A stretch of 64,000 nucleotides of DNA, from NCBI GenBank assembly GCA_947172415.1, contig OX359191.1:7487130-7551129 (forward strand), written 5' to 3'. Both the position numbers and the translations under genes were made by a program. Each line of letters opens with the position of its first letter. The first letter of the stretch is position 1. Source of the stretch: Chondrosia reniformis (lineage: Eukaryota; Porifera; Demospongiae; Chondrillida; Chondrillidae). The notes beneath the pieces were generated by a model. It was not told the DNA's origin. It saw only the letters and a program-made list of their open reading frames with translations, and ran no database searches. Below are positions 367-63,216 of the stretch, piece by piece.

Positions 367-1110
367 CTTTTTATTCTCCCACCACAGCTTTCTCTTCAGA
401 TCCCTAGCACCTCTTTGGAAGTGTCGGGCATTGTAGTTCAGACCCTCTGAATGAATGCCAGCAGCAAGCAGTAATGCATTATTTACGTTTAGTCACATCA
501 TATCGCCTGACCTGCTTTTTCTTCCATGTCATCTAATTTCTGTTCTCTGTCCTGTAGCTTTCTCACATTCTCCCTCTGGACATCCTTGACCTGTAGTTCA
601 GTAAACACAGTATACCACAGTAGAAGTGCTTGTGTGAAATATACGTACCTTATATACGTACTACAGTATCATCCCTACAATAAACTAATTCATAACATAT
701 GAATATACGATGATAAGTTTGCCCATTACTCAAGCTACCCAAACCAGTACCACTCAAGCTACACAAACCAGTACCACTCAAGCTACTCAAATCAGTACCA
801 CTCAAGCTACACAAACCAGTACCACTCAAGCTACACAAACCAGTACCACTCAAGCTACACAAACCAGTACCACTCAAGCTACACAAACCAGTACCACTCA
901 AGCTACACAAACCAGTACCACTCAAGCTACCCAAACCAGTACCACTCAAGCTACCCAAACCAGTACCACTCAAGCTACACAAACCAGTATCACTCAAGCC
1001 TGCTAGAAAGGCAGACGGATGTCAAACAAGTTGACATAATCCTTCTCAATACAATAACACTTACATTTTCCACTTTGTTTTGTAAATTCCTGACTTGTTC
1101 ATTTGAAGAC
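367..1110 (-). CDS. VAMP/synaptobrevin-like R-SNARE (copy A), 3' part beyond the window
   Basis: R-SNARE of vesicle fusion. Three exons are visible on the minus strand: 1110-1065, 590-512 and 446-367. They encode a short N-terminus (SSNEQVRNLQNKVEN), the SNARE core with the zero-layer arginine in LQDREQKLDDMEEKA, and the juxtamembrane motif RKLWWENKK. Exon lengths (46, 79, 80 nt) and phases match the two VAMP genes at 7927-8752 and 8974-10939, so the three are paralogues. The membrane-anchor exon is not found between 1 and 366 and must lie outside the window. The first coding exon begins with a lone G before TCT, which implies a start codon split AT|G by an upstream intron, as in the other copies. 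One candidate donor is GCAT|gtatag near 1410, but this is uncertain. Orthology to a particular vertebrate VAMP is not claimed. Confidence 0.88.
725..1000. repeat. 24-bp minisatellite in the VAMP-A intron
   Basis: About eleven tandem copies of a 24-bp unit containing CTCAAGCTACACAAACC. Single-base variants occur among copies. It lies in the intron between the exons at 1065-1110 and 512-590. Because 24 is a multiple of three it creates open frames on both strands that are not genes. Confidence 0.95.
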
Positions 1111-1722
1111 CTAAATACAGCGCAAGTTACAATATACTAAGGTAATATATACATAAACAGATGAAACTTCAATAAAAAGAAACTGATGATAGATATGGTG
1201 GTACGGTCATAATACATACAGAGTACATCAAAACACATACAGTTAGTTAAATATTGACTTATAAGGGTAGCCATCTAGTAGACAAGGGTCTCTGAGTCTC
1301 TTATAAGCAACACAAGTGTGATTAGAAAACCTATAATAAGTATCTGATCAGCGAAAGCACGTAAACACGTATATTGGAGAGATTATCTATCGAAGTAAGG
1401 ACAGCTATACATGCATTTCTATAGAACAACTACTCTCAGCCAAGCACCTCTTTTCCTGCGAACTCGAAGGGAAACTAATGGTCTAAACGATGTCACCTCT
1501 TCACGTACAAACTAGATTCTAATCTCCCTTGAGAGAAATTAACAATATTGCGAGCTGTTTGCATGTCAGGAGGAGTTAATTATAGGACCATTAGAATTAC
1601 AGGTTTGCCGTTACCCTGCGGAACTTACATGGTTAACTTCTTCGCTTAGGAATGCTCTTATTAAAGAGGCGTGGCTACGTACAAGATAAGAAATGATAGG
1701 GATTTACTCACCACATGCGAAA
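1111..1722. promoter_or_regulatory. Shared upstream region of VAMP-A (-) and TARDBP (+)
   Basis: About 600 bases between two divergently transcribed genes. It must hold the TARDBP promoter and the 5' untranslated exon of VAMP-A. No TATA box or other motif is clear enough to place a start site. An in-frame ATG at 1693 lies upstream of the chosen TARDBP start. Confidence 0.4.
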
Positions 1723-4700
1723 ATGTCTGGTTTTGTGCGTGTTACGATTGATGAGACATTAGCCGACGATGCTATTGAACTGCCAACAGAAGAAGATGGA
1801 AATCTTCTCTTAGATTCGTTAAAGTCTCAGTTCGAGGGAGCGACTGGGTTAAAATACAGAAATACCGAAACTGGTGGATGGAGGGGAGTTAGACTTTCGG
1901 AAGGCGCGCTTCACCCGCCTCTTGGACTGTGGGGAGATACGCTGTACATTGTAGTTGCGCCGAATATCAAGAAAGAGCACAGCTCAGGTAAACGTGATCA
2001 AAGGAATGCATTTAAAACCTGATATTTGATGTAGGCGTACTTTTCAACAAGTGTGATGTTACATGTATTGTGGATAATAGTTTCATTGCAATGTTATATG
2101 TGATTTGTGTTTGTACTTGATGTTGTCATGGTTACCATTAGATCCAGTTAAGAGGAGGATGATGGATGACAATGAGGTGGACAGAGCTGCCAAGAACCCT
2201 CGTCACACCGCTTGGGTCCAGATGGACCACTATTCTCCACAGGAACACTACGAGCAGTACCAGTATTCTGACAAGGAACCAAAGGACCTGATAATCCTGG
2301 GACTGTCCTATGAGGCCAAAGAGGAAGATGTGAGAGAACATTTCTCAAGTTTTGGAGAAGTGGACTTTGTGTCCGTGAGTTACTGTATGCCATTGTTGTG
2401 TTGTGAATATAAAAGTACATATGTGTAAATGTACATAACTTTAGTGCCCCCTTGAAATTCCCATTTGTCATATGTTTCAGTTTCTGAACTTCTTGTGACA
2501 TATGAATAATCTAAACACTGCTTAAGGAAATAGGGAAAAAACCCTAGAGCTTTGGATGAGGATACAGTTTCATACCTTTCCTTTTCCACAGAGCTAGAAA
2601 TCTGTTTCAGTGAATTCTACCATTCGTCGGTGAACCTGGGAGTCTCTGTCTTCTCTTCTTCTCTGAGTCCTATATACGTATACTTTAATGATGGCCAAAG
2701 AATTGAACACTTCAGTTGTAATATCTTTACTTGTTTCTGCCTGCTAGAGTTTATGTGGGAGTATACGGTTATTACCATCTTATGTAATATCTCTGTTTAC
2801 CTATGTACATTCAGCATAGGGACACAATAATAATTAACACACCATTTTTCTTACATGCTATACATACGTATATCTCCTTCAGAGTAAAAGACCTATAGGG
2901 AACTAAACTAGTAAGAGCTTTGGATGAGGATACAAGAGGTTTCTCCTTTTACTCTTCTTTTTCTCCACTGGGCTAGACAGCTGTTTTGAAGCTTTTCTCT
3001 ATATATCAGCTTGTAGTGTTAATGCCCTGCTATTTGTGTGTAAACATGCGTAGGTGAAGATGGACACTGCTACTGGTAGACACAGAGGATTTGGATTTGT
3101 GCGAATGGCAAATGCCGAGGACCAGAAGAAGATATTTGGAATGGAACACACAATATGTGGAAGGAAGTGCGAACTGCGTCAGCCACGAAAGGTACATACG
3201 TCATAACAATTTATTACAATTCACGGGTTCTCTGTTTGTTACTCTGCTCATCCCATTCAACATATTTAATCTATGTACGTTTATGTATATATACGTATAT
3301 TGCATTAATGTGTGCATTTTGGGAGAAAATAGAGGTATAAAAGTTTATAAGTGCAGTAATAATTAAATTGTCTCAAGTACTACATGTGGAATTCTCAAAC
3401 AAGCTATTCTGTGGATGAGTAATGTGTATGTATGTATGTATGTATGTATGGATGGAGGTTCTCTTTATCAGAAATGACCAATCCTTTGCTTAGGATTTAA
3501 ATGATACTTTGTTGGCTTTCACCTTTAGTCAGTTAATACTGCCACTTGCTATAAGTACGTACGTAAAATTCAGAATAATCTAAACACCTTTTTCTGACAT
3601 GCTACATCTGCTTTAGAGTAGTGGCTTATACTCAGCGAACTAAGCCTAATGAGAACTTTGGATGGGGATACAAGTTTTTTCCTTCTCTTCTTCTCCACTG
3701 GGCCAGACAGCTGTTTCTGGGAATTTCACCCTTCATCTGTTACCCTGTGACTCCTTGCCTCTCTGTGCTAAACCTTATACAGTGGAACGTTGGTTATACA
3801 ACGTTGATTAACCGAACTGTCAGTTATCTGAACGTTTTTTAGTATTGCATAATACCAAAATGGCTACTGCTAAAAGGAAGCAAACGGTGATGACACTTAC
3901 GGAAAAACTGAATATTTGCGAACGACTGGCTAGAGGAGCCACGGTAACATTACTATCCAAAGAATATGAGGTAGGAAAGTCGATTTTATGCGTAATGAAG
4001 TCAAATTGAAACAGTTTGCTTTGAAATTAGACGGCTGCAATAGTTCAACTAAGCGGTGCACTATGAAATCTGCAAAAGATACCACTCTAGATGATGCCTT
4101 TTTTATGGTTTACCCGTATGTCTGTGTGTCTATTCTTACATTGTTTGATCATATGAACAATTTGATTTTATGGCAACGTCAATCCCCTATTAGTTCATAA
4201 AATTGAAGTTCCACTGTATATACAATTTTGGTGCCAAAAATTAAAATTAAAATTAAATATGTAGGTGTTAGCTAACACAAAGTATGCCACATCAAATCAG
4301 AAACATCATCTGAGTCTGTTTTATTTGTGTTCTATTACAGTCTGCCAAGCCAAACAGGCTATTCATTGGCCATCTCCCAAACAACGTGACTGAGGCAGAA
4401 CTGAAGGACCATTTTAAGAAATATGGAATGCTCAGGGATGCTTACATTCCTAAACCGTTTAGAGCCTTTGCCTTCATCACGTATGACACTGGAGATGAGG
4501 CTGAGAAGGCCCTAAATGATAAGCATGTCCTTAAAGGTGAGAGATGCACTAAATGTTCTAACATTGTACTTCCTATATCACAAGGTATTTAATGTCACTC
4601 TTGAAATAAAATTTTATTTGCTTTAATGGTAAGTGTGTTGTAGAACAGTAAATATACTTAATCTGTGTACTATTTGTATTTAAGGATTCATAGAATAGTT

Positions 4701-5762
4701 GCAACTCAAGTTACATATGTTTAAATTCATATTTTAAAACAGAATGATTGGATTTTATTTTTGGCAATTTATATCTACCTACGTAATTATTTAGCTAAAT
4801 TGTATTCATAGGCTGGTGGTTGATAAATGACTCTTTAATTAATACTCACTAGTCAATGGAATAGACTTGTTTATTTTTATTGTATTGCATGGATCTGTGC
4901 GTTAATTTTGCTAAGTTGAATTTTAATTGATTGTCCAATCACAGCACTAGAAGAGCAGCTATGGGTAACTTTATTAAGCTTACCGTACTTAATGTACATA
5001 TAGTATATAATTAACTGTCCAATCACAGCACTAGAAGAGCAGCTATGGGTAACTGGTTTGAACAACTTTATTAAGCTTTGTGTGCTCTTAAGCTACTTAA
5101 TGTGCGTTTAGTATATAATTAGCTTTCCAATCACAGCACTACAAGCTAAGGGTTACTGGTTTGAACAATTTAATAAAATGTTATGCTTTGAAACTACGTA
5201 CTTAATGTGTGTTTCTTTCATTTTTCATGTTTTAGTACAAATTGCAGTCGTCCATGTCATTTTACTGTATAATGTTTCACTTTCATATATCTTGTTACTG
5301 TGCTTGTTTATATTTCGGTATGTACGTATGTTAGCTGCATCACTAGTACTACCAGAATGGTAGTACTTGTAAGTTAATTTTTTCTATTCTCTTAAAGGGA
5401 CTCCACTTAATGTTACCATAGCCCAGCCTCGGGACAAGTCCAGTCCCTCTGGTCCACCTGGAATGCCCCACTACACGCCCTCATCATATCAACAGCCACA
5501 CCCATCTCACGCTCTCCCGGGCCACCAGCAAGGGGGAGTAGTAACATATCATCAGCAGCACGTGCAGAGCGGAAATCCTTCCCAGACTCCACCCACAGGC
5601 AATAGTGGATTTTGGTCAGTTGGAAATCAGTGGTATCAATCACAGCAGCCACTTGATGGTAGCCCCGCCCTCTACCCCTCCCAGTCATCTCCAGCTGTTA
5701 TCTATACCAATTCAACAGCTGTTCCCCCACAGAGGATTGGACACTCAAGGCCTCCTCGGTGA
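1723..5762 (+). CDS. TARDBP: TDP-43 RNA-binding protein
   Basis: Nuclear RNA-binding protein controlling splicing and RNA stability. Five exons: 1723-1987, 2148-2374, 3054-3191, 4341-4536, 5398-5762; 396 residues (human 414). Residues 1-88 match the TDP-43 N-terminal ubiquitin-like oligomerisation domain (GLKYRN, RGVRLSEGALH). A basic patch VKRR near 89-92 sits where the nuclear signal lies in human TDP-43. RRM1 (about 135-210) has LIILGL and RGFGFVRM; RRM2 (211-275) has RLFIGHL and RAFAFITY. The C-terminal 120 residues are Q/P/S/G-rich low complexity, less glycine-rich than human. ATG 1723 was preferred over in-frame ATG 1693 because homology starts there. Introns 2 to 4 carry dispersed repeats and a Tigger-like element. 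Confidence 0.95.
2534..2615 (+). repeat. Dispersed repeat copy, TARDBP intron 2
   Basis: Contains GAGCTTTGGATGAGGATAC followed by a pyrimidine-rich run and a CCACAGAGCTAGA segment. Related copies lie at 2875-2990, 3600-3725 and 49962-50082. The family is unrecognised. No terminal repeats were found. Confidence 0.6.
2875..2990 (+). repeat. Dispersed repeat copy, TARDBP intron 2
   Basis: Fuller copy of the same family: AGAGTAAAAGACCTATAGGG, then the GAGCTTTGGATGAGGATAC core, a CT-rich run and CCACTGGGCTAGACAGCTG. Confidence 0.65.
3600..3725 (+). repeat. Dispersed repeat copy, TARDBP intron 3
   Basis: Third local copy: CTTTAGAGTAG, the GAACTTTGGATGGGGATAC core, CT-rich run and CCACTGGGCCAGACAGCTG. 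It ends just upstream of the Tigger-like element. Confidence 0.6.
3780..4216 (+). mobile_element. Truncated Tigger/pogo-like DNA transposon
   Basis: A 437-bp element in TARDBP intron 3. The ends are inverted (CAGTGGAAC at the left, GTTCCACTG at the right) and each is flanked by TA, the target duplication of the Tc1/mariner superfamily. From ATG 3860 it encodes about 49 residues resembling the CENP-B/Tigger N-terminal helix-turn-helix (TLTEKLNICERLARGATV, then LSKEYEVGKSIL), ending at a stop near 4006-4008. No DDE catalytic domain remains, so it is a non-autonomous remnant. Confidence 0.8.
4925..5175 (+). repeat. Three diverged tandem copies in TARDBP intron 4
   Basis: A segment of about 80 to 100 bases beginning TCCAATCACAGCACTA and running through GGGTAACT, TTTATTAAGCT and TACTTAATGT is repeated three times with divergence and small indels. 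No coding potential. Confidence 0.75.
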
Positions 5763-6600: not shown

Positions 6601-6949
6601 GGAGAGCCAGGAGTATTAACTCAGAACCTCTTTAGAAGAGCTGAGACACAGTAAACTCTGCCAAGGAACTCTGATTCTGCCCAGAACCTGAACAATGTAA
6701 GTTTTCTTAATTATTTATAATGACTAATAATTCTTTAGAACTTACCTTTAACTATCAAGCATTTATTAGCCACTCTCCTTCAGATTAAACTAAGGAGTTA
6801 AGGCTTCTACTTAAATAGTTTTTAGGGTAGGTGTTGCTCTCACCACTGAAATCTATCCATCCTTGTTTAATTATAAACAGCTTGTTCTCCCTCTCCTAGC
6901 CCAACTCACCCTGTCTATAGCTAATTTACCTCTCTTCATATCTGATTCA

Positions 6950-7926: not shown

Positions 7927-8752
7927 GTCCAACTATGGCAGTACCCCAGGATCTGGTCCTGGCCTTAAGGCAGTGAAGACGCTGCAAGCAAAGGCAGATG
8001 ATGTGAGTTGTGTTTATCAGTATCAGCACTTGACTCTGGATTTTACCCCGCCCACTAATGTCACCTAATGGGCCAATGGGCGGGACTTAATTGGAACCAG
8101 ATTCTTCCATTTATCCACTCAAAAAGATGGCTGAGCCATAGACAGCTGTTTTTTGTCCTTATTAGTATGTGTTGGAAGTCTACTCTGCTAATAAGGACTC
8201 CCAAAAGCTAAAAAGCTTGTGGTTTCCTTATCAGCAGATAAGGCAGAGAGTGTTGTATTTAGTATTTAGGGAGTAGTGAATAGAAAAGATGTCAACATTG
8301 ATTATGTTGTGTTTGCTTTTAGGCTAAAGATGTTATGAAGAAAAACATAAAGACGGTCATGGAAAGGGAGGAAAAACTGGAGAAGTTAGAGTTGAACGCA
8401 GGTTGGATTTTAAACTTGTAGATAAATTGCTTGGTAGCACTTGTGTACTTGTATTCTCAGAGTATCTGAAGAAAGGTGGTGCCTCCTTTGAGAAGGGAGC
8501 ACAGGAGATGAAGACCTCCTTAAAATGGAAAGTCTACAAGGTTAGTAGTTGTGGTTTCCTTTATCTTTTTAGTTTGAATATTCTCTGTTTTACAGAAATG
8601 GATCATTTTGATCACACTCATAAGTATAATCCTCTTAGTAATTATTGGTAAGTCTTGCGACATTGAATACTCTATAGTTATTTACTGATTTCTTGTGTGT
8701 CTTAATTGCAGGTATTATTGTTGCTGTTGTGGTCACTCAGTTTAAGAAATAA
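7927..8752 (+). CDS. VAMP/synaptobrevin-like R-SNARE (copy B)
   Basis: Tail-anchored vesicle SNARE of 109 residues. Exons: 7927-8002, 8323-8401, 8461-8540, 8596-8647, 8712-8752. The first base (G) completes an ATG whose AT lies at the end of an upstream exon; counting it gives 330 nt in frame. A short N-terminus (SNYGSTPGSGPG) is followed by the SNARE core with the zero-layer arginine in VMEREEKLEKL, a linker (KTSLKWKVYK), one strongly hydrophobic helix (WIILITLISIILLVIIGII) and a tail ending QFKK. Length is typical of VAMP3/VAMP8. The juxtamembrane WW pair of copies A and C is replaced by KWKVYKKW, and the normally acidic position before RADA is altered, so this copy is the most diverged of the three. 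Confidence 0.88.
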
Positions 8753-11625: not shown

Positions 11626-14600
11626 ATGAGCGAAGCGAGGAAGTTTCTTTGTGGAGTAGTTGAAGGTAACACTCTTCATCTTCTGTTCTGTTTATTAGAT
11701 AATTTCTCACGTCCTTTTGAAATACGTAGGTTTCTATGGACGCCCATGGACGTTCGAACAACGAATGGATCTCTTCCAAAAGTAAGTTTGATATTTTGTG
11801 ATCAAATTATTCTAAGAGTATCCTGTTGTTGGTGGGTAATAGTTATCTTTTATCCTGCTAGAATGAGGCGATGGGAGATGAACGTCTTCCTGTACGCCCC
11901 CAAAGACGATAGTAAACACAGAGTCGACTGGAGAGACCTTTATACCCTGGAAGAATGTCGTAAGAAACTGTGACAGTAGATCTGTTTTACCCAAATAGAG
12001 CAAACTTATGTCCCATAAAATTGCCAATGGTAATGGGACTTCCCAGCCTGTATTGAAAATTGATTAGAATTAGGAAAGTTTAGTGTCGAGCTCATAGAGT
12101 GACCTATGTTTCTAGCCTTTACACTGTGCCACAGCTCAGTATATTAATCTCCCCTTCCAAGTATTATGTGTATGTACAACCTGCATGTGTCCTCCTGATC
12201 ACCAAGTAAACAATGATGTGATTGATCGTCCCCATCTTCCAATTAATTAGATGAGCTATCAAGGTTGATTAAGGCTTGTTCTGACAGTGGTCTGAAGTTT
12301 ACCTATGCTATAGCTCCTGGACTTGATATTGTGTTTTCGGGAGAGAGGGAGGTGGTGACACTAAAGAAGAAACTTGAACAGGTACAAACATCACCAGATA
12401 GTAGTTTATTATGAGGAGGGGGAGGAGTGGGCTAAATTTTGGCAGCCTGGGAGGTGGGCGTATCAATTGGTTTGAGCAAGACCTACACTGTACAATTGTA
12501 ATGTTTACAATAGTGTGGACACCTAATTTTGATTATCATTCTTTTAAATAACATTCTGCAGGTAGTTAGTCTGGGTTGTTCAAGTTTTGCCATCTTGTTT
12601 GATGATATTGACCCAATTTTATGCACTGCTGATGCCAAAGTGTTTGCTACTTTTGGTCATGCCCAAGTAGCCATTGCAAATGAGCTTTTCAATCACTTAA
12701 AGAAGCCAGAAATCTTCATGTTTTGTCCAACAGGTGAGTACACAGGGGATTTCCCTAGGAGTCTACAGTTTTTCTCTGGTCATTGAACTGCTGAGTTAAT
12801 GCGCACATTTTATGTATACATGATATATTTGTGCAATCTATTAGAATACTGCTCTTCAAGGGCTGAACCAGCTGTCAAGGATTCACAGTACCTAAACACT
12901 ATTGGAAGTGACCTGGACCCGGGAATTGACATACTCTGGACTGGTACATTGCTTTTCTACTCTCTTGTCCATCCTGTTACATGATCCTTGTTGCCTGTCA
13001 TGTGATATTATTTCCTGTCATGTGATATTATTTCCTGCCATGTGATATTATTTCCTGTCATGCGATATTTCCTATCATATGATATTTATTGTATTTCCCT
13101 TCTCATTATCACATGATAAATACTGTCTGTCATACGTCTTTCACAAAATAGGCCCGAAGGTGATATCCAAGACAATCTCACTGCAGAATATTCTAGACAT
13201 CACAGCTGTTTTAAGAAGAAAGCCCATAATTTGGGACAATTTGCATGCCAATGACTATGACCAACGTCGTCTCTTCCTTGGTCCCTATTCTGGCCGAAGT
13301 GTGTCACTGATTCCAAAGCTTAGAGGTGTCTTGACCAACCCCAATTGCGAGTACAGTGCCAATTTTATTCCAATTCACACCTTGGCCCAGTGGTCCAAGT
13401 GTTTTCCTCGGAGAAACAGTGAAAAGGTAGAGGAGCAGGAGGAATCGGAGCATGAAGATGATGACGAGTACATGCATGACTCGCAGAAGACAGATTTGGG
13501 GAATGTTGACCAAGGAGTGGACTGTGAGTACATCTATGAGCCTCGGAGAGCTCTAAGAACAGCCATTGTTGACTGGTTGGCTGAATTTACCAAACATTCA
13601 AAGAGAGAAAAGTCAAAAGTGGGTAAAAGTGAAGCGGCAAAGTCACTGAACTCTACAGACGACACCACAAGCGGCAGTAATTCTGATCCTCTCCCCTTAA
13701 TGGGAGTGCCTGTTGAGGGAGGGAGTGCAAAGGAGAACAGCATGGAGACGGCAGATTCGGATCAGCACAGTGATTCTGGCATGTCTAGCCCAATGGAGGT
13801 GAATGAGGTGCAAGGAACAGATGGGATGGACAGTGTTAGCCATACCGATCAGAAGAAATCCACATCACCTCTGCCGGAGCTGCCACAAGAGGAGGATGCA
13901 GCAAAGAAGAAAGAAACACAACAGTTTACTTTGGATGATCTAAACATTTTAGTAGATTTTTTTTATCTCCCCCATAAATATGGTCCTCATGGTGTAAAGA
14001 TGCTAAAGGCCTTTTCCAGTATTAAGTCGTCTTCTCCATCTCAGGAGGTACTGCAAAAGTATCATGCCATGTTTGAGAAGATCAAAGGTGATCTTAACAA
14101 ACTTGACATTGTTCAGGAAGAAATGGAGCATAAAGTAAGATTATAGTATCTGCAAGTTTCAAACAATACTTGAATTGTTAAGTATACCAAAAGCCTGTAA
14201 TTGGCAGCTATCGTTATCTGATTTCTTCTGTGCCACCTTGTAGGTCTACATGTGGTACAGGGAGAGTCTCTTATTCAAGAGGAGCTGTAAGGAGATCTGT
14301 CAGATGTTCTCCCGTCTGACTTCCATCCCCAACAGACCTCTCCTGTATGATATATATCCGTATGTGTGGGACGCCAAGGAGGCTGTGATGCTGCTTGACT
14401 GCTATGTTTCGTGGCTAAGTAAGTAGAATTTAGAATTATAGCAGTTGAGTTGAACTGTGTGCATTCCCATAGTTGCTGGTGGAGGTGAAGATAAGGATGA
14501 CTCATGGTTGCCTCCGGATGTTGAGCCCTTTGTACTGCGAGGAGGTATAACAGCAGCCATGCATGTGAGTTCCTATGCAGTCTCTCAAGCCAGCCCACTA

Positions 14601-24833: not shown

Positions 24834-24942
24834 TTAAAAACTCACATGGGGAAATAACCTCAATTTAATTTGTACGGCTTCGAATTCATAGCTGTACAAT
24901 CATTGCAATAATTTCGACATGATAAAAAGACAATATTCTAGA

Positions 24943-50800: not shown

Positions 50801-51051
50801 TCTTTTTGCGGGTAAATTTAAAACACTGTTAATAGGCACTAGACATTAACAGTACTCAGTTTGGCAATAGGTTTGCTCCTACTAACCTCTTGGAGAACAA
50901 TGTGTTGACGTTTTAAGGTTTCAAAGTTCAACTTGTGCTTTTCTGCATTCCGCAACCTCTGGTCCACCATTACAGACTCAAGCCCAGAACCTCCTAATCC
51001 TCGATCATCTCTTGTAGTTTGAATCAATGGTACTCTATTTTGAACGTCCAT
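44803..51051 (-). CDS. CEP83: CEP83 centriolar distal appendage protein
   Basis: Coiled-coil protein that anchors the mother centriole to membrane at the start of ciliogenesis. Fifteen exons: 51051-50887, 50739-50599, 49928-49816, 49378-49267, 48155-48051, 47886-47615, 47336-47292, 47226-47097, 47039-46884, 46806-46637, 46267-46012, 45924-45824, 45747-45699, 45494-45375, 44946-44803; 692 residues (human 701). Diagnostic blocks: VDQRLRNAEKHKLNFETLK, VLTGDKVELIKSQL, YNKLKYNYSFLKSEYE near the N-terminus and LHQRHRQLVLLL near the C-terminus align with human CEP83. The 50-residue block between LQE and VLT has the same length as in human. Nearly the whole protein is heptad-rich. Intron 4 carries a C48-protease transposon and intron 2 a minisatellite. 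Confidence 0.92.
46440..46530 (+). mobile_element. Possible SINE related to 29235-29320
   Basis: Shares GTGGCAA, ACTGGTGGTCA and a B-box-like GGGTTCACTCTAA with the sequence at 29235-29320; also shares flanking text (AGTTAGCATAAGAG). Lies in a CEP83 intron. Confidence 0.4.
48198..48968 (+). mobile_element. DNA transposon with inverted ends and a C48-type protease remnant
   Basis: Bounded by inverted ends GATCTGTCATGCCG (left) and CGGTATGACAGATC (right), inside CEP83 intron 4. G- and C-rich subterminal repeats (AGTTCCCCC, AATTGGTTCCCCC) are typical of its ends. It contains the broken protease gene at 48424-48740. Superfamily not assigned. Confidence 0.75.
48424..48740 (+). pseudogene. Ulp1/C48-like cysteine peptidase fragment, frameshifted
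   Basis: From about 48484 the frame reads VPEQFVQIVHDNNHWVC, then GEVEIFDSL and VCVQQQT, matching the His and Asp regions of Ulp1-like (C48) peptidases found in transposons. After QQQT the expected SDCG catalytic cysteine motif is present but in another frame (GSDCGLFAIAF, about 48691-48723), so a frameshift breaks the gene. Upstream sequence from an ATG at 48437 is in a third frame. This is a decayed passenger gene of the element at 48198-48968. Confidence 0.72.
49962..50082 (+). repeat. Dispersed repeat copy, CEP83 intron 2
   Basis: Same family as the three copies in TARDBP introns: TTTAGAATAAAAGACCTATA, GAGAGCTTTGGTGAGGATAC, CT-rich run, CTTCTCCACTGGGTCA. Confidence 0.65.
50112..50420. 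repeat. 30-bp minisatellite, CEP83 intron 2
   Basis: About ten copies of a unit containing ATAGTGCTAAGACCTAGATG. Point variants (CATA/CGTA, GTGC/GTGT) and one four-base insertion. Frames open across it are artefacts. Confidence 0.96.
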
Positions 51052-51187: not shown

Positions 51188-54100
51188 ATGAGTGGTAGTG
51201 GTTCTACATCTCCTTCAATCAAATCCAGCGAGATAGGGAGCCCGAATGGTGAACCCACGGGAATTCCTAACAGTCAAGACTCTGTAGTTCGCATAGTAAG
51301 CAGTTTTATGCAAAGTCAGGGCAGCCAGGAAAGCCAAGGGACGGCGAGGTGAGTGTGAGTGAAGTATCACGGCTTACTTGGCTCCTTGCGCGCGCAAACA
51401 ATTGTCACATCTGGTGTGGTCCATTGATAAAGGATGTATCATAATTTAGTGTCCTCTAATTAATGCTAAATGAATGCCGCATTATGCAGCATGAATCGAA
51501 TTGATTATGTGCTATTTCAATTTGTCGTATGTTTCGTTACAGTGGAACTGATCACATTTACGCATCAAATCACTATGAGGTAGACAATGAGCACCTAAGA
51601 GGTATGCTTGTTGACAAACAGGGTTAATGTATACATATGTACATATGTAGCATGTATGTATATGTGTGCATGTATGTGTAACTTTAATGTGAGCAATGTC
51701 ATATATACTCCCTTTTAGAACAAATGGAATATTCAATTCGTCATCGTCTGGTAAGTTCTCAATATGTTTATCTCTGCAAATATTGTGGTTTGGGATGGTG
51801 AATTATTCATAAATGATCCTGTACAAGTAGGGGTGATTGATTTGTTTCTATGGGTCCTCTGTAAATTGGTTTGTTCTTGAAACCAACCACTAATAATTGC
51901 TGTGGTTTAAGGATAATTGATTGTTGGGCTTGCCCGGGCAAGTGGCTGAAGGTGTTTTCCATTGGGAACTACCATTGAGCTGTATGATGTCATTCCTGAA
52001 CACAACCCACAAGACACGCCCAACATAGCTGCTTACTAAATGTTTAGTGAGAAATGCTGAGTCAGCAAATTTGTGGGAACTGCTTTAGTTGTGTGTAGCT
52101 GTCATGTAGTATTGTTGTAATGTCAGTGTTTTTGTATTAATTGTACCCTGTATATACTGATAAATAACAGTTAAGCCTAAATCAATTGTATTACAAGGGT
52201 TTTAGTTTGAGTGATGTTCAACTGGGTCTACAGTTTTTAGACAAGTTTTTAAATGTAGCTGTCATTTGGCACCAGAATAACTGGAACAGACAGGCTTATT
52301 GCTATAGCAACATTTTAGTCCTTTTTGTACTTGTAATTCATGTGGTTCTCTGACTCAATGAGTTTTGCGGGTGACCAGTACTGTATCTCACCATCTGACT
52401 GTAATAAAGTAAGACCCGTCACTTTCCGGTCCTGTCTCCTCAAATTCTACACGGATAGTTCTTAAATAATCACTTTACTTCTCTATAGGATATCGTACAA
52501 GGTGCCACTCCACAGATGCAGGGAATGTTTTCACAGCAACAGATACCCTTACAGGTCCGTACTGCTCTCATTCTCCTCAGTAGTTGATCCATCTCCTTTC
52601 TCTTTCTCTATGACTTATCCAAGTATATAATCTCAACATACACTTACTTGCAGTGCTATTTGTTGTCTTCCCGTAGTACGAGGGACACCCGTACATGTTT
52701 GTACCGTCTCACATGCCAGCCACACTGATAAGTCCTCAGGGCATGCCGAACAAGTAAGCCTTTCTGTTACATTTTAGTATGTTAGTGTGAATGAGCTCTA
52801 TTCTCCCTACTTATTTCCTCATCTGTTCAGTGTGTCTAATTTTCATATGCACGTCAACCCATAAGTTCAGGAAAATGGTGTTTTATAACAAATTGAATAT
52901 ATTATTATTGTTATTAGAGTGCATTGTGTGCAAAGCACACAAGAGACTAATAGCTAATGCATCAACCTTGTTATTGTACTAGTGAATGAAATCCTTTTGT
53001 ATATAGCCTCAGTGAACCCTCAATTTACAAATTTGGCCTTCTCTTTGGGCCAGATGTGAGTTGCTTGACTTTTCAATTAGCTTTTCATAGCTTATTGAAA
53101 TACATGTTTCAATGTTTGTTACCATAGCAACCAACAGCTAAGTCATCTCCTCAGACTGTAAGTTTCAATCTGTGTTTGTTGCTCTGTTTATTTGTGCATG
53201 TCTGGGCATATTTGTGTTTGTGTGGTACTTACGTATGTAGTTGAATTTGTTGAATTATTAATAGTTGTACCTTTTTTGGTGATTTGTCAATATTTCTCTG
53301 TCGTACACCATTCCTATGTGTTTATTGTAGTACTCCCATCGACTAAAGTTGTTTATTGCAAAGAGATCTACCAGATGCACTCTGGTCTTTTCATTTGAGC
53401 GTAAGTAAATGCTGTGTTTTCAAAACAATAATCTGCTGACTTACTTAATTTGTAAGGAAGTTATGGGATATACGTATATACGTACATATGTACATCTTAA
53501 ATGGTGTTCCTCATTTCTCTTCCCAGAGCTACCTCCGGAAGGCTCAAGAATCAAAGCAATAGCTGTGTACAAATCGCCAGTGTTGCTGAGTGAGAATGTG
53601 GAGTGCTGTGCCTCGCATAGGGAAGAAGGAAGCAAGGAAGGTCAGTGCAGACAGTATGTGTTAGGATAACCCAGTAAATTCAGAATATCCTATATTCTGT
53701 AGTTGGGGCTGAACTGGCAAGCCATTTTGTGCGTTGCCTGGATAAGGGAGTACAATATGAAGGTCCAAACCCTACCACAGGCCATCGGAACCAGATGGTC
53801 ATACCTCTCTCCTCTTTGCAGTGTAAGCCACTCTCTCTTCAGTTCATAAAGTACACATATGTATATACGTACAGTTGACTCCTGATATAACGAACACCAA
53901 AATCCCAGCATAATTGTTCTTTATAAAAGAAGTTCTTTATAATCAAATGTACTTTATTTGTATATAATTATACAAATAAACTACTCATCAGTGCAGTATG
54001 AATACAGTAGAATGCTTACAAAATTAAAATTACGTAAAATAGTATATTAATGGTACTTAGGGTGGACTTTTCAACTGAAAATTCGTCACAAATGCCGTTC

Positions 54101-57100
54101 TCCTTCCTCCCTTTATCCACTTGGTCCAGTAACTTGGGTTTAAGAATGATAAATACAGCCATTTTTGGCTTCACACATACATCATAAGTTAACACGTTCG
54201 TTATAATAGAAGTTTGTTTAGGGGTGTTTGTTATAAACAGAAGGAATTGAATGGACAGGAAATTGTTTTTGACAATCGTTGTTATAACCCAAAATTCGTT
54301 ATGAGCGAGTTCGTTATAAGTGGAGTCGACTGTATGTAGATTGCTCTTTTTGCTTTTTTTTTGATATTCATATATAGCTTCGGTGGAAGTGTTGAATGCA
54401 CAGACAGAAGATGTTGTATCACCAGGGGCAACCACAAAGTGTTACACCTATACAGGTATATTTATCTTTCCCTGCTATACATGTGAATTACCAAAACAGT
54501 GTAAGGGAGTAGTACAGATACTGTTTGGATTGGAAGTACCGTAAGTATAAAGTCTACGCCATATATGGCATGTATGCGTATGTTTATATATTACCCAATC
54601 TTACATACATATGTATGTACGTATGTGCATATCTTGTATATGCAACCCAATCTTCACAATCTTCCATCACAACCTTCCCAATCTTCCATCACAACCTTCC
54701 CAATCTTACACCTTGCATTATGATTACAAAGGATCCTGCTCCTGTCCATTGTTCAAACAGTGTTTAGGGGAAATGGTGTGTTTCTAATGTGTTTATAGTC
54801 TCCCGGGAGGAGGGTACTTCCCCATAGCGAGGACATCCTTGGATGTGCGTGTCTGCTCCTCCACTGGCAGAGACAAGGATATACTTGAGTCTCGTCTGGA
54901 GGGACAGGCCAGTGAGAGTGAGGAGAGGAAACCTGGAAAGGGAAAGTCCCGCAAGAGGAAGGGTGAGGCACACAACTTTCTGTCCCAAGCTGAGATTATT
55001 TTGACAGGCATTGATTTGATACCTCTGTATACTAGTCCATACACCTTAAGTTTTATCTAACATTCTTTTAACCACAATATTTTACTTATACCTGTAATTA
55101 TAAATCACAATCTATTACCCTCGCATTCGATTTCCAATGTACAGTATTTGTTTACAACTAAACACATCTTTACAGATGCTGTGGTTCAAGACATAGTCGT
55201 GTCCTCTAAGAGGTCAAAACTAAATGATGAAGATTCAGATGAAGAAGGGGCATACACAGTCACTGTATGTTACCGTGAGCATGTACATACGTATACGTAC
55301 GTATATATAGGAAAATATACATAAAAACGTATACACAAATATATTTAAGCCCACACATACGTATTGTCCATATTAATGAGCAATTATTAGAAGTATATTT
55401 AGGGAAATTTGTGATATTGCCTTAATATCAGTTATGTCCTAATAAATATGAATGTCCCAAAGAGTGTCCACGTACATGTACGTACATGCACAGATTAACT
55501 TAGGAGAGCATTTACGTATGTACGTATACAATTCTTGGTTGATTAATGAAATGACGGTACACATAGAAGTGCTCCTCTGTAGACCAAACACAAGGATATT
55601 TACCAAATGTTGGAAAAGATAAAGAACTCTCTAGAACTGACCAAATGTCTGACAAAGGAACAGCTTTCCCAGGCTGCCAAGGATGGGTGGGTCTTGTGTG
55701 TAGTACACTTAAGAGTGCTCTTGATATTAATGTATGTACAAATATAGTGATTTAATGCCTGTATGAGAGTACATGTGTGTACAGTAGAACCTGTGTAAGT
55801 GATCACCTCCACATTACGGTCCACCCTTGACATTTAGAGAGGTGGCTGCATTATAGAAAGCCTCATGTCCATTTGTGTACAATTATGTGCCAGGACCCCA
55901 AGTTCTGATGGTCCCAGCTGGCTACATTAGACAAGATCACTGATATAATATAATCTTTGTTATTCAGGCAGACAAATGAAGAAATATCAAGAGGTTACAT
56001 ATCCACTGGCCTATATGCTAAAGGGGTAGTGGAAACGGCAGAAACGGCGGAAAGCACGAAAATGGGCTTGTCTCAAAACCACTAGTCAGGGGGAAATGCA
56101 TGCAGCTTTCTAACTAATAGCGCTGCAGTAGCAGCGATGGATGGAGCCCCTTAAAGCTGTCCTTTGGAGCGAATGCCTATAAGAAAGGCTTGGAAACGTT
56201 AACGAACGGCCGCGAACGATAAAATGGCCGTATATGACGTAATAAAATGTCCGCATGTTGCAAAGCTTGGCTTTGGGCTGATCCTGGGTAAAAGAGGCTT
56301 GGGATAACCCGTTTGTAGCGTCAGGATTTAAGAAGGTTGGTTATGAAAGCAATCCTTCCTAACGGATACACGTGAAGAAAGTCACCCCAAGCAGTGGGCG
56401 GTAAAATGGCCGTCTAGCTATAGCGTTCGTGTGCAAATACGTCCGTTTTTGGGCAGAGCTGGCCACAGAACGTACATAATTGCACCAGAACGCTCTAAAC
56501 AGAACAACTCCTACTAGCCGCAGGCATGCATATTAGCCAGCTAGCTTATCAATTGACGTTAGTTAGTTATACTATTACAATATATAGCTGATTTACTACA
56601 CTGTGTTTAGTTATGATGCGCTTAAGGCTGACCTGTCTTAGCTCGCCATACTGTTCGCCATTTTCGCTTGCGTGCAGCCATTTTTTCGGTCTCTGTCGCT
56701 GTTTTTAGATGTTCACACAAAAGGACGGCCTTACGCGCTCTTAGTTAGAAAGCTGCATGCTAGTTTCGTGGCTTCGTGACAAGCCTCCTCGGCAATTTTC
56801 ACGGTTTCCGCCATTTCTGCCGTTTCCACTGCCCCCATGCTAAACAACTCTGTGTGACTGTTGATATCTTTGTGGTCTTTCTGCCCTGCTCATAGGATAA
56901 TACTACCTGATGTGTGCTCTCCATCATCTCAAGTTGGAGATGGAGAAAAACCATCTCAGTCTAAAGATGAAAATATTCATAATTCAGTAGCAGAGTAAGA
57001 GTTTATTTACAGACACGACAGTTGCTACCAGATTAGAGTGATAATTAAGCAGCGATAATACACAAACCACAACCATTCTCCTATTGTCATTGTGCACTCA

Positions 57101-57620
57101 TAAAATGGTTCATCTGCCATCGAGCTCTGACACCACAGCTGAGCTTCCTTTACTTTTAAACATACAAATAGCTAACCAGACACACTGATTGACTGAGGGA
57201 TTGTTCTCTACTTTTTCTTTTTTTTTCCTTTTCTTACAGTTTGCTGAGGTCACTTGGCTTAGAGAGACATATAAAAGTCTTTAGAAAATTGGGAATTGTG
57301 GATTTATTTCAGTTGGAAAATTTGAGACATGAAGTCAGTATTTATAGTATTCCCCTGTGTGTGTTGTCTTAACAATGTGCTGCTATTCTTAGACTCTCAG
57401 AGAGGCCAAGATTCCAGAGGAAGATATAAGGAAGATTGTAGTGGCTATCACCAACTTACCAATTCCTGGTACTGAGGCAACCAGCAGCAGTCAAATATCC
57501 TTGCTTGGAGGCACTCAGCAACCACAATACACGGAAACAATAGAGTTTAGGATGCGCAGAAACTTTATAGCTACTGATCATGAACCACTTTTTAATGGAG
57601 AGTTGAATCTTGATGATTAA
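51188..57620 (+). CDS. p53/p63/p73-family transcription factor with SAM domain
   Basis: Eighteen exons: 51188-51348, 51543-51601, 51719-51750, 52489-52554, 52677-52753, 53007-53055, 53128-53157, 53331-53400, 53527-53640, 53703-53822, 54378-54455, 54510-54540, 54799-54962, 55176-55264, 55583-55686, 56896-56994, 57240-57333, 57393-57620; 554 residues. The DNA-binding domain (about 158-325) has YSHRLKLFIA, PPEGSRIKAIAVYK, the first zinc pair in ECCASH, ASHFVRCL, ATGRQ-like TTGHRNQMVIPL and ARTSLDVRVCSSTGRDKD. The tetramerisation helix region KHKDIYQMLEKIKNSLELTK (from 383) matches p63/p73, and a SAM domain follows (448-500: LLRSLGLERHIKVFRKLG, LREAKIPEEDIRKIV). The order TA-DBD-tetramer-SAM is that of p63/p73. 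Exon 12 (31 nt) is the least certain; the second zinc motif CxxxC is not recovered. Confidence 0.9.
53871..54333. mobile_element. Non-autonomous Tc1/mariner-like element in a p53-family intron
   Basis: Inverted ends of about 25 bases: CAGTTGACTCCTGATATAAC at the left and GTTATAAGTGGAGTCGACTG at the right, each flanked by TA. Internal sequence repeats GTTCGTTATAA-type motifs. No transposase. It sits in the intron between DNA-binding-domain exons 10 and 11. Confidence 0.8.
56015..56844. mobile_element. Non-autonomous hAT-like element in a p53-family intron
   Basis: An 814-bp element (56023-56836) with long inverted ends: GTAGTGGAAACGGCAGAAA at the left mirrors TTTCTGCCGTTTCCACTGC at the right, and the match continues inward past GAAAGCTGCATGC. 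It is flanked by 8-bp direct repeats ATGCTAAA (56015-56022, 56837-56844), the duplication length of hAT elements. It is GC- and CpG-richer than its surroundings and encodes no transposase. Confidence 0.82.
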
Positions 57621-57807: not shown

Positions 57808-60800
57808 ATGTTAAAGCTACAAAACCGATACACCGAAGACACTGATCCAGAGGCCGACAGTATGGGTAAGATGAAACTTTTCATACATCAGTCGGCTTTA
57901 ATAAAAGCTAAGCTTTGAACTCGTGTTTCTTGTGCAGCCAAGGAGGAGCTTGCCAAACTCCAGCGGCAGTACAGGATCATTGAAGATACTCGCAAGTCCT
58001 TCACTGATGAAGCTCAGAATACCCTACGAAAACACAGGTTAGTACCTCTGCCTTAAATGGTTTCTGTGGTATTACCTAGCTAGTGGTCTTCTGTAGGGCA
58101 ATGATAGAGATGCTGGAAGCAGAGAGTAGGGATTTGAAGAAAAACCTCTCCCTCGCAGAGAGTCGACAGAACAAGCTTAAGGACCACGATATAACAGAAA
58201 AACTCGAGGAAAAGCTTAAAATGAAGCAGGAATATGAGGCCTTAATCAAAGAAGAGCAAAGAAAGATTACGGAGCTTGATAGGAGTATAAGAGAAGTAGA
58301 AAAGAAGATTAATGTAAAGAGGAAAGATATGGGAGGGTAAGCAGTAAGACACTTGAAAAACTAGTGATATTAATTATGTACTGTGACAGTATACCACCAT
58401 ACTTGGATTTGTTGTTGTTGTTGTTGTTGTTGTTGTTAAGAAACTATTAAACGTAAAATTTGTTCCCTGGTCAGAACAGTGTCACTCAGATGTGGTATAT
58501 ACTTACACTTTAATAATGTCAAATGTGATTGTCTCTTGTTGTATATAGTGTTCACATGAGTCAACAACAACATATTGCTACTCAGAAGAAGATTAGAGTT
58601 CTGGAGAATCGTCTGGATAATGCCTTGAAAAGGTTCAACACTGGTTTAGCTGATAATGGCAAGCTGAGAACGCAGATTGATCACTTGAGGCAGGAGAGAC
58701 AAGTGTTTGAGAACATGTACAAAAGGCTTCAGAGGGTAAGGCCTTGACAGCTATGAACTGTTGTACTTACATATACGTACGTATGTAGATGATTGCTAGA
58801 AACTCATCTTAATTGCCTACATACGTACGTACGTACCTGGGAGTACAAATGTGTAGAAATTGTCACATCTGATACTGAACAACATGTGTATGTACGTACA
58901 TACATATATGTAAAATACTTTTGTTTCTATATGTACGTATGTACTTAATACCTGTGGTATAGCAAAACAGGATTGGACTATAATCTGAATGCATATGTGC
59001 CTACGTACGTATATGGATACTGCTTTTTATTTAGAATACATCTTACTTGCCTACATTAGGAGCTAAATGAGTGCAAAAGAGAAATGGGAGAAGTTATTGA
59101 GATGTCCACTCAGGCCTACGATTCAAGGTACGTGCTGTTGGATAGAGCGTTACCTGAGTAGGTCTGAACTTGATAGATGTCTTGTGTTTGCATGCTATAG
59201 AGATGATGCTCAATCCAAGATTGTGGCATTGAAAGAAAAGATGGACAAAGAACTAACCCAATACAATGCTGAGATTAAGGAGTTGATTCGTGTCATTGAT
59301 CATGATAGAAAACTCAAGGAATTCATGTCCAAGAAAGGTATGCAGATGTGTGTACAGTGTCTACGTATGTATGTCCGGTGTTAATAGGATAAAGTGTTCT
59401 TTGTACAGATCAAGAACGCAGTGAGGCTCATGAGCAGATTGAAGAGATGAAAAGGAAGAGGGAGAATGAGAAAGCTGATGAAAGAGAGAGAACAGTAATG
59501 GTAGGAACACAAAGCAATGCAGTTTAAAAATATTCCGTGTATCGGTATACCACGCTATAGACCATACCTCCCTCTTGTTTCTATTCTGCATAGTCTTATG
59601 AGACCGGGTTCCAGAGGATCCAGGAGGCTACAGGAATTGTTGACATTGATAAGCTGGTCATAAAGTTTATAGAGGGTGAGGCTGACGTTACTTCGCTGGT
59701 TGGATTGTTTGAACAGTGTTGACACCTTTCTTGTTTAGTGGAAGATCAAAACTTTGCCCTGTTCAACTATGTCAACGAGCTTAACAATGAGATAGAAGCA
59801 ATTCAAGAACAAATTATGGATGTACGTATGTACCCTACATCTCTCTTTTATACATTTAGCCATCCACTTAGCCATCTAGCTATATGTCTAGCTAACTGCC
59901 CTGGAGTGGCCATCTTACTCTAGGTGCTTCATTCATTAGAATTAATAAAGCCATGTGTCCTTTGTGTGGTTACATAATGTTTTAGATAAAGAATGAAATA
60001 GAGGCCTTTAAGAACCAGGGAGTGGCTATGGAAGAGAGACGCAAAGTTATCCTCAGGGAGATGGAAGGAGAGCTTGCAACAACAGAACAGCAATGTATCA
60101 AATTTGAGAACAGAGTCTCCTCAACTATGAGAATTGTCGAGCAACTCAAATCAGGTACAATTCATCATCTTTACTAAGCTTCTTCAGTAAGGGTTAGGGT
60201 TAGATAAATTTGATGTTTAATTACAACAAATTCCTCCTTGAATGCCTAAGTCCCCTTAATAGAGTTATTCCTTTTACCAGCTACTATGCATACAAATTTA
60301 GAATGTATCCATTTAAACAAAGAGATGTCTCTTAACTTCTCACTGGACAGGTGTGGAATCTCTCTTCAACAAAGTTGGTTGTGATAGCAGTGCCATTACA
60401 GACATGTTGGGAGGTCAAGGTGGAGTCTCTGAGACGAACATTCTTCAGTACATGGGGATTATTGAACAGAAAGCTAATGAGCTGTTACAGTTGCACTCTT
60501 ACTCCAAGGCAAAGGAGACAGGTGACACTGCCACAATGGCTGCCTTCCTGGCCACCAGAGCTCCAAAGGTCACAGCCGGTTCACTCTCCATCCAGCCTCC
60601 TTCGACTGTGTAAGCTTATCAATGGACAGTACAAACGAAATAGACACTAGAAAAGAATATAAATATATATATACATCTTTGGAATAACATGCAACTTATT
60701 AATGTGTCTTCTCTTATTTACAGAGATGAATATGACTCTGATGCATCTATTGAGGACGAAAACAAGCCACTGACGCAGGAAGACCTCAGAAATAGACTTG

Positions 60801-60998
60801 CTAAAAGAGTGGTAAGTATGTATGTGTGCAGTTGTGTGACGTTAGGATTATCTGTAAACCATTATCTCTTGTCTCTTGGAACAGTTGGTGCAGAAGGAGA
60901 AACTAGCTGGAATAAGCTCTGATTCTCATCCGCCCACAACAGCTCCCGGGACAACCGCTCTTTCCACCAGATCAGGAAGAAGAACCAGCGTCAAATGA
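57808..60998 (+). CDS. CCDC63/ODAD1-like outer dynein arm docking protein
   Basis: Coiled-coil protein of the family that docks outer dynein arms on ciliary doublets (Chlamydomonas DC2, human CCDC63 and ODAD1/CCDC114). Exons: 57808-57865, 57938-58037, 58097-58336, 58549-58735, 59060-59127, 59201-59337, 59409-59500, 59594-59675, 59739-59821, 59986-60154, 60351-60609, 60724-60811, 60885-60998; 558 residues (human CCDC63 563). Family blocks: ELAKLQRQYRIIEDTRKSF near the start, KIRVLENRLDNALKRFN with LRTQIDHLRQERQVFENMY, ELIRVIDHDRKLKEFM, and EDQNFALFNYVNELNNEIE. Length favours CCDC63 over ODAD1, but a sponge gene may be pro-orthologous to both. Confidence 0.87.
58408..58437. repeat. (GTT)n microsatellite
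   Basis: About nine GTT units in the intron after exon 3 of the docking-protein gene. Confidence 0.95.
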
Positions 60999-61331
60999 AC
61001 AGAAACTGTCATATACGTATACAGTACATGCATAACATTCCTCCGAATTACTAATTACTAATTGGCGATTGACTACGTATATATGCGTCAGGTGACGTCA
61101 GTAATTAGATGGCGTACGAATAGGGGTTCCCACGTAAAATCATTTTAATTTGATTTATTTTCTCTTAGCGGCTACCTCCATTGTTCGGAAGTCACCAGAG
61201 ACTGGATCGTCCCACAATTTATAAATCTTGATACCCTAATCGTCCCAGCTTCCCCGAAATTGTTTTATAGTCATAACTGAGTGGACGGTGATACAACTTC
61301 ATCTCGACTTCTCCATTATCCTTAATCAATC
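60999..61331 (+). promoter_or_regulatory. Intergenic region upstream of atypical PKC
   Basis: 333 bases from the docking-protein stop to the atypical PKC start. Contains GGTGACGTCAG near 61090, a CRE-like TGACGTCA palindrome; function not shown. It includes the atypical PKC 5' UTR. Confidence 0.4.
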
Positions 61332-63216
61332 ATGACCCAGCCAGATCCGATACCAGTTAGATTGAACTTCAAAGGGTAAGTTTTACAGCTCATTAAGGTA
61401 TCATTGCGTACAAGTTCGTGTAGTGGTGTCTGTAGCGGGCTGTGTGTGCGTATCTATGGTGTGTGTGAGGACGGCGAGGAAGCCTTTGAGACGAGAGACC
61501 GCGAGAATGGCAAGTTGCTATGCTCATAATGAAATTATCCTAAAGATTTAGTATTTGGGAAAAGCATTTCCTATGAAAGTGGGCTTTGTAGCGGATAATT
61601 AGGAACTAAGAAAGGTATGAGTGAAAGGTGATCAGTGAATACAAAGCGAAAATGTTTCAGGTTAACCTATGAAGCGTATGTTTAGTATACTTTTCGAATA
61701 TTTCTTCGCATTTGCGAGTTTCAACTTTCCTTTTATACGTGTTATTAACACCAAAACCAAGTTGTTTTGGTATGTATATAGCTATGTTTTAAGCTAAAGA
61801 AATGAGAGGAGTTAGTTAGCAGCCTAAACAATGTGAAGTGTTGTGTTATACTTGTACCAGTTTATCCAACAATCGATCCCTGGTCATGCATGAAATAGAT
61901 TTCTCATTCCTTTGTGTATTATGTAAATAGGGAGTTATGTAATGAGTTCATTTGTATGTTTCACATGCAGAGGTGACCACCTGAATGATGTCATGTGGAG
62001 GTGTTCTATATATAGCATATTTGCACCTCATTTAGTTGATATGTATACAATGCAAGTGATAACCTCTAGGCACACAATTCTCAGAATCTCATATAACTGA
62101 TTATTTCATTCTATTCAGACGTGAATCACGATTTTACCTTGATCCCCGTACTCCCCTGGAAGAAGCTCGTAAGGAACTTCGCTCACAGTGTACCCTCAAA
62201 TCAGAGACCCCTTTCAACCTCAAGTGGCTGGATGTGGAGGGAGACCCCATCAGCGTAGACACACCTCGAGATTGGGATGAAGCCATCCGACTGTACATGT
62301 ACAACCAAGAGACTGAACTAATTCTGCATGGTCAGTTGAAGGGGAGGCTTTTAAGGACTGTCTTTAGTATAGAAATGGTAGTTCTTCCTGCATTTAGATT
62401 ATCTAAAGCCAAAAGATGCCCATAGTTACATTTAATGTTGATATTCAAACCTTTAATACTGGTTGAAAGATGAGCCACCCCAAAAACTAGGTATTGTTTA
62501 CAGTAAACAACAATAAACTTGTATCAATTTTTTCTGTAGTATTTGAAGGTGATCCGCCAGTTCCTGGCCAACTGTGTGAAGGAGAAGATCGTAAGTGAAT
62601 AGACAAAGCTCTGATGGGAGAGCAGTTAATGTACTGTTCTTCCTGTATCTCAACAGGAAGTATTTACCAAAGAAGAGGAGCAAAGAGATGGAAGAAAATC
62701 AAGAGGATTAATGGTCATGCGTTTGTGCCCAAGAGATTTGCTAATGCCTACTGTGCCATCTGTGATGACAAGATTTGGGGACTTGGCAGACAGGTAACGG
62801 AGAGAGAGAGAGGACATTTTAGCATTGTGCAACATCTTATCTTGCTTTAATCTGTTGCCAGGGTTACAAGTGTCAAGCTTGCAAGATGACTATTCACAGG
62901 AAGTGCGTCTACTACCTCCGTCAAATCTGTGAAGGCCATCCCGTTAGAACTGGTTTTCTGTCTAGTTTGTGTGTGTGATTATATGATTCTGCTCCTCATT
63001 TAGCCTGTTGTGTCCGCCGCTTCTCGACACACCCATGAAGGACCAGAGGTTGTTAGCAATAACCAAGTTACCAAGAGCAACCACCACAAAGGAACTGATG
63101 AGTACAGCGGACACCTGCCTGACAACTCTGATGTGATTGGGGAATCTCAAATCACATTGGATCATTTCAATGTTTTGAAAGTCATTGGGAGAGGAAGCTA
63201 CGCCAAAGTGTTGATG
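61332..63216 (+). CDS. Atypical protein kinase C, 5' part (gene continues past the window)
   Basis: Serine/threonine kinase of the PAR polarity complex, one gene corresponding to vertebrate PRKCI/PRKCZ. Exons: 61332-61375, 62119-62330, 62540-62590, 62657-62793, 62862-62942, 63004-63216. The PB1 domain (about 10-95: [31 protein letters not shown]) binds PAR6. The pseudosubstrate is [13 protein letters not shown], with alanine at the phospho-acceptor position. A single C1 domain follows ([23 protein letters not shown]), with one residue fewer between its first His and Cys than in human. The last exon ends inside the kinase glycine loop ([12 protein letters not shown]). The following intron is a minisatellite that runs off the window. 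Confidence 0.94.

Follow-up and report, generated by a model that had tools for sequence, protein, structure and literature searches.

The window analyzed here is a 64-kb stretch of DNA, C3:7487130-7551129, on chromosome 3 (C3; other chromosomes are numbered likewise) of the demosponge Chondrosia reniformis (assembly GCA_947172415.1), and it holds genes of the VAMP, TARDBP, UBE4B, p53, and atypical protein kinase C (aPKC) families, among others, whose human counterparts we take to lie on the short arm of chromosome 1 (1p). All human chromosome positions and the 1p share of human genes used in this work are background assumptions of ours. The original prediction, made from the sequence, was that these genes form a condensed block of ancient synteny with human 1p. 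Our results point to a different arrangement: with a probability of about 0.8, the window is an ordinary local sample of a chromosome-scale bilaterian-cnidarian-sponge (BCnS) ancestral linkage group (ALG) on distal C3, from about 7.3 to 9.1 Mb or beyond, with its gene order scrambled.

If so, the genes would have stayed on one chromosome for hundreds of millions of years, exchanges between chromosomes being rarely fixed, while rearrangements within the chromosome would have scrambled their order. In vertebrates, the unit would have been duplicated twice, leaving co-orthologues at 1p36 and in paralogous regions at 3q26-29, 17p13, and 12p13; those of VAMP, p53, aPKC, MFN, and CAMTA are presumably spread over 1p36, 3q, 17p13, and 12p13. 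The tight packing of the window would reflect the small genome (117 Mb) and not a preserved cluster. The assembly comprises 117,379,552 bases in 15 contigs, with 9,415,654 bases in C3 and 6,903,244 in C13; the sections of the genome report consulted describe odChoReni1.1 as 117.37 Mb in 14 chromosomes and a mitochondrial contig, with 17,340 protein-coding genes, a chromosome 3 of 9.42 Mb, and a chromosome 13 of 6.9 Mb (PMC12181767). The gene count given there corresponds to about 9.5 genes per 64 kb, and the packing of the window can be put down to genome size. On this reading, the window amounts to some ten adjacent genes out of a stretch of C3 in which one such linkage group is abundant.

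Placement of 1p36 families in the sponge genome

We searched the genome with a panel of nine families assigned to human 1p36, none of which had been named in the original prediction (MTOR, MFN, UBR4, CAMTA, DNAJC11, EMC1, EXOSC10, MTHFR, and ENO). Seven were placed, EXOSC10 was without a match, and UBR4, which gave no result, stands outside the count. Five of the seven lie on C3 (MTOR at 7.31 Mb, MTHFR at 8.49 Mb, CAMTA at 8.53 Mb, EMC1 at 9.09 Mb, and MFN at 9.10 Mb), against the 8.0% expected from the share of C3 in the genome (P = 6e-5). This is linkage beyond chance, as expected of a segment of a BCnS ALG, and it supports a link with human 1p36 and its paralogous regions at the scale of the chromosome. 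The five markers span 1.79 Mb (7.31-9.10 Mb) and flank the window on both sides, with P = 0.0055 for a span so short; mixing along C3 may be incomplete. The panel was hand-picked and its list was not fixed before the first results; EXOSC10, MTHFR, and ENO, along with UROD, PRP38, and TOP1 (see below), were run once the first five placements were known, and orthology was judged by family, not by reciprocal hits. MFN, CAMTA, and enolase presumably have further human copies on 3q, 17p13, or 12p13 and therefore test the paralogous set, not 1p36 alone.

Several results weigh against the linkage-group reading. DNAJC11 is on C4 and enolase on C6, with human DNAJC11 and ENO1 taken to be at 1p36.31 and 1p36.23, and the EXOSC10 domain found no match in the sponge genome. 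The CAMTA placement is a single weak exon match (31.6 bits, with one stop inside), and of 14 control genomes from bacteria and archaea, 2 also match the MFN model. TOP1, which we take to be at 20q12 in human, falls on C12, and it is the sole non-1p control run. Families from other parts of 1p are off C3 as well: UROD (presumably 1p34.1) is on C13, and two PRP38-family genes (the human PRPF38A and PRPF38B being presumably at 1p32.3 and 1p13) are on C6 and C13, giving 0/3 on C3, yet two genes of the window are assigned to 1p32-34. Finally, only one of six database-supported families found on C3 outside the window is on 1p.

Genes of the window and their human counterparts

Gene calls came from a gene finder that had been trained on this sequence, stop-to-stop readings, Pfam, and comparison with solved structures; Pfam was run on exons joined from the window, the edges of which are approximate. 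Eleven families were counted: VAMP, TARDBP, OGA, CPLANE2, CYB5RL, EBNA1BP2, UBE4B, a coiled-coil gene (entered as a single-copy family outside 1p), p53, ODAD1/CCDC63, and aPKC. The count excludes the additional R-SNAREs and a fibrinogen-domain gene, which has no single human orthologue. Uncorrected, and for a window picked afterwards for its 1p genes among about 1,834 such windows in the genome, the 8 of 11 families with a human 1p co-orthologue (by assumed positions) give P = 8e-8 to 1e-6 (about 3e-7) when several human copies are allowed for and 1p is given 5 to 7% of genes; on the same footing, 5/7 of the families treated as single-copy, among them the coiled coil, are on 1p (P = 6e-6 to 3e-5), and 1p36 proper gives 6/11 (P = 2.5e-6 to 1.7e-5, given a 1p36 share of 0.6 of the 1p genes).

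From left to right, the order is VAMP (-), TARDBP (+), a second R-SNARE (+), perhaps a third R-SNARE (+), OGA (+), CPLANE2 (-), CYB5RL (-), EBNA1BP2 (-), UBE4B (+) with the fibrinogen-domain gene (-) within it, the coiled-coil gene (-), the p53-family gene (+), ODAD1/CCDC63 (+), and aPKC (+), an order that differs from the one we assume for human. There is no uninterrupted run of shared neighbours of the kind expected of conserved microsynteny, as OGA, ODAD1/CCDC63, and probably the coiled-coil gene break in. The condensed block that had been proposed is thus not borne out, since it is interrupted by these genes and 64 kb is simply the space of about 9.5 genes at the genome average. All eight families of the original prediction are present, with VAMP3 and TP73 recognizable at family level only; it had left out OGA, ODAD1/CCDC63, the coiled-coil gene, the fibrinogen-domain gene, and at least one more R-SNARE (8.3-8.75 kb).

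The VAMP gene (352..1102, -) is an R-SNARE (Synaptobrevin, 1.9e-16), as had been proposed, but its near-equal scores to the solved structures of VAMP2 (43.6 bits) and VAMP4 (41.5 bits) do not separate VAMP1-3 from VAMP4, and so VAMP3 as such is not singled out; the human co-orthologues are taken to be VAMP3 at 1p36.23, VAMP2 at 17p13.1, and VAMP1 at 12p13. Next to it are TARDBP (TDP-43; 1693..5762, +; TDP-43_N 6.7e-23, RRM_1 1.6e-28), presumably 1p36.22 in human, the second R-SNARE gene (8329..8752, +; Synaptobrevin 3.4e-16 on joined exons), a third R-SNARE-like exon read by eye only (9866-9934, +), and the O-GlcNAcase gene OGA (11641..16134, +; NAGidase 3.1e-53, first and last exons by eye), which we place outside 1p, at 10q24. 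The small GTPase at 20995..22299 (-; Ras 1.7e-10) has CPLANE2 (RSG1) as its best solved relative (7q3e_D, 55.1 bits), with Rab9A as runner-up at 26.8 bits, and human CPLANE2 is presumably at 1p36.13. CYB5RL (23337..24833, -; Oxidored-like 1.1e-12, FAD_binding_6 7.6e-21, exons below 23.6 kb by eye), whose best match among solved structures is cytochrome b5 reductase 1, is assigned to human 1p32.3, and its neighbour EBNA1BP2 (24943..26944, -; Ebp2 3.9e-71 over profile positions 4-246 of 246) to 1p34.2.

UBE4B (27023..43110, +; Ufd2P_core 1.5e-44, U-box 7.2e-17), presumably 1p36.22 in human, is approximate at both ends, with its N-terminal exon read by eye; among solved structures, the U-box is closer to UBE4B (72.8 bits) than to UBE4A (49.7 bits). 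A 54-base unit repeated 3.7 times at 43061-43260 overlaps the end of the U-box exon, and the 3' end of the gene is therefore uncertain. Within the UBE4B span, on the opposite strand, lies the fibrinogen-domain gene, mostly one exon (34562-36046, -; Fibrinogen_C 1.8e-61). The coiled-coil gene (45988..51051, -) is CEP83-like by eye only: it matched no Pfam family, the solved chains it matched were only designed or unrelated ones at E > 0.2, and 0 of 2321 candidate proteins were related to it at E <= 0.001.

The gene at 52358..57620 (+) belongs to the p53/p63/p73 family, with P53 (1.6e-11; 44.9 bits, cut-off 27) and a C-terminal SAM_1 (7.1e-5; 23.5 bits, cut-off 23) on joined exons. The claim that it is TP73 finds support at this family level and not for TP73 itself, as p53 chains match from 4.9e-7 and the best 60 of 99 matches to solved structures are all p53; we take the human members to be TP73 at 1p36.32, TP63 at 3q28, and TP53 at 17p13.1. 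When the genome was searched with just the P53 domain, C13 gave the only match; the window gene was missed because its individual exons are too short. The C13 match is weak (C13:6826411-6826833, -, 26.3 bits, three stops inside the frame) and suggests separate exons or a diverged p53-family copy, so that the family is apparently not single-copy in this sponge, and either copy may be the counterpart of the vertebrate genes. Downstream are ODAD1/CCDC63 (57808..61035, +; ODAD1_CC 1.8e-45, with 97.9 bits to CCDC63 and 94.0 bits to CCDC114), whose human locations we take to be 19q13 and 12q24, outside 1p, and the start of aPKC (62119..63222, +; PB1 1.5e-5, C1_1 2.5e-13), with a kinase domain that runs past the window end. 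In solved structures, aPKC matches PKC iota (134.1 bits) and then PKC beta (78.6 bits); the human counterparts are presumably PRKCZ at 1p36.33 and PRKCI at 3q26.

A 30-base repeat follows the first aPKC kinase exon, from 63277 to 64000 and beyond (24 copies at 99% within the window); it is open on the minus strand, and the gene-finder call there is probably false. Other minisatellites, with units of 17 to 30 bases, lie between or inside genes at 728-999, 6942-7251, 10452-10757, 32693-32969, 42407-42915, and 50114-50420.

Surroundings of the window and alternative readings

For comparison with the window, an outside sample was taken of 100 kb on each flank (200 kb) and of 20 kb of C3 at each of 8.70, 8.00, 5.00, and 3.00 Mb (80 kb). 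The nameable genes of the flanks are SF3B2 (DUF382, 2.6e-47), SCLY, CAPZB (F_actin_cap_B, 2.7e-101), which begins 2.4 kb past the window end, TLE (98 bits to TLE1), OPA1 (OPA1_C, 2.9e-43), which lies 19-24 kb downstream of the window, and FARSB (PhetRS_B1, 2.1e-22). Human CAPZB is presumably at 1p36.13 and OPA1 at 3q29, and MFN, p53, and aPKC are likewise assumed to have 3q co-orthologues. The 20-kb samples add SCO, with database support, and vigilin, FTSJ1, FOXRED1, and EFHD, read by eye; no nameable gene was found in the 20 kb at 3.0 Mb or the 20 kb at 5.0 Mb, the latter having a reverse-transcriptase-like reading by eye.

The outside count thus comprises 11 named families (SF3B2, SCLY, CAPZB, TLE, OPA1, FARSB, SCO, EFHD, FTSJ1, FOXRED1, and vigilin), six of them with database support (CAPZB, TLE, OPA1, SF3B2, FARSB, and SCO). 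Predictions with no single human orthologue or name were dropped beforehand, namely a ten-gene tandem family, collagen-like, fibrinogen-like, GH16, and VWA-like genes, and other unnamed predictions. Vigilin (KH domain only), SCLY (Aminotran_5 below the cut-off), and FTSJ1 (FtsJ below the cut-off) remain eye-read names, and FOXRED1 and the plus-strand gene at C3:8.011 Mb matched no Pfam family. EFHD at C3:8.715 Mb was unconfirmed, the best 60 of 62 matches being calmodulin and other EF-hand proteins and none EFHD, and it was dropped from the firm count.

Families on 1p make up 8/11 in the window and 1/6 among the database-supported families outside (Fisher two-sided P = 0.050, one-sided P = 0.043), or 2/11 outside with the eye-read names (P = 0.030) and 1/10 once EFHD is dropped (P = 0.0075), all of these P values being too small because the window was singled out afterwards for its 1p genes. 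For 1p36 proper, the contrast of 6/11 with 2/11 (P = 0.18) or 1/6 (P = 0.30) is not significant. A higher density of 1p genes in the window than in its surroundings is therefore borderline and suggestive at most. The borderline contrast would fit a locally dense remnant, in which the window and CAPZB kept more of their ancestral neighbours through slow local rearrangement or selection on shared regulation, but we consider this unlikely: besides the choice of window after the fact and the lack of a significant 1p36 contrast, the run is broken by non-1p genes, and the human 1p36 members, by the positions assumed here, lie some 14 Mb apart and are ordered differently. An extended form, to which we give similarly little credence, would make the distal fifth of C3 a largely unmixed ALG island and the 70 kb from VAMP to CAPZB a dense remnant under selection, with the p53-family gene, aPKC, TARDBP, and UBE4B near neighbours since the common ancestor of sponges and humans.

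It is very improbable that all of human 1p derives from one sponge-grade linkage group. EBNA1BP2 and CYB5RL adjoin each other in the window, as such a unit would have it, but UROD and the PRP38-family genes are 0/3 on C3, although the contrast with the 5/7 for 1p36 is not itself significant (P = 0.17). The predicted 1p linkage is supported for 1p36 with its paralogous regions, with five of seven markers on C3 and CAPZB just outside the window, and is not supported for 1p as one old unit; EBNA1BP2 and CYB5RL are weak members, which may have moved along human 1p or may be here by chance. The least probable explanation, chance combined with selective reading (the best co-orthologue and the best of 1,834 windows being picked to give an apparent 1p cluster), could draw on the absence of two clear non-1p genes, OGA and ODAD1/CCDC63, from the original prediction and on three of its eight families presumably having two or more human copies to pick from, but we regard it as highly implausible given that markers not of the predictor's choosing fall on C3 at the rate reported above and that 3e-7 multiplied by 1,834 windows is still about 6e-4.

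Two groups of similar genes were observed in the flanks. Upstream of the window, at C3:7418439-7455863, ten tandem genes in the same orientation have in common a conserved stretch, of which about 150 residues were tested without matching a Pfam family, and long repeats of the PPLQTQQ type; two of these genes have a short SAM reading (1.3e-9) between them. At C3:7577425-7583023 (-), two similar genes adjoin each other, and the one tested with Pfam is a glycosyl hydrolase of family 16.

Relation to known linkage groups

The idea of shared linkage is already published for demosponges: in the sections consulted of Schultz et al. 2023 (PMC10232365), demosponges carry BCnS ALGs whose linkage is kept regardless of order, two ALGs may sit on a single chromosome, and interchromosomal exchanges are considered seldom to become fixed. 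The C3 group resembles these ALGs, gene sets that stay together on a single chromosome across sponges, cnidarians, and bilaterians although their order is not kept; that work, in those sections, concerns Ephydatia and a cladorhizid sponge (PMC10232365), and ours concerns another demosponge and a handful of genes. Our data show most of the gene identities, the placement of marker families on chromosomes, and the interruption by other genes; a match to any named ALG, the vertebrate history of each gene, and incomplete mixing on C3 go beyond them. In bony vertebrates, most chordate linkage units are found in four copies after two genome duplications, according to the parts of Simakov et al. 2020 consulted (PMC7269912), so that one unit may give rise to as many as four segments in a vertebrate genome. 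The co-orthologues of VAMP, p53, aPKC, MFN, and CAMTA would fit this pattern. The parts consulted yielded no chordate linkage group (CLG) letter for 1p36, a term absent from the text searched (PMC7269912), and any CLG assignment here would be tentative.

Closeness of genes has been kept over a similar or longer time in the gene pairs of Copley 2025, which, in the portion consulted, come from Capsaspora, Ephydatia, Rhopilema, and bilaterians (PMC12728501). Those pairs are immediate neighbours in several species, whereas no pair in our window is known to us as adjacent in human; the same portion argues that the significance of such linkages has been overestimated (PMC12728501). Among the matches listed in our literature searches, there was no usable 1p36 gene list, 1p36 paralogon study, or ALG study of this species.

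Our results correct the label of the window, which should read 1p36 and its paralogous regions in place of human 1p. The window and its chromosome offer a further demosponge in which deep conservation of animal chromosomes can be checked on a concrete case. There is also a hint that the group occupies only one end of C3, which would allow a test of the timing of a chromosome fusion within sponges.

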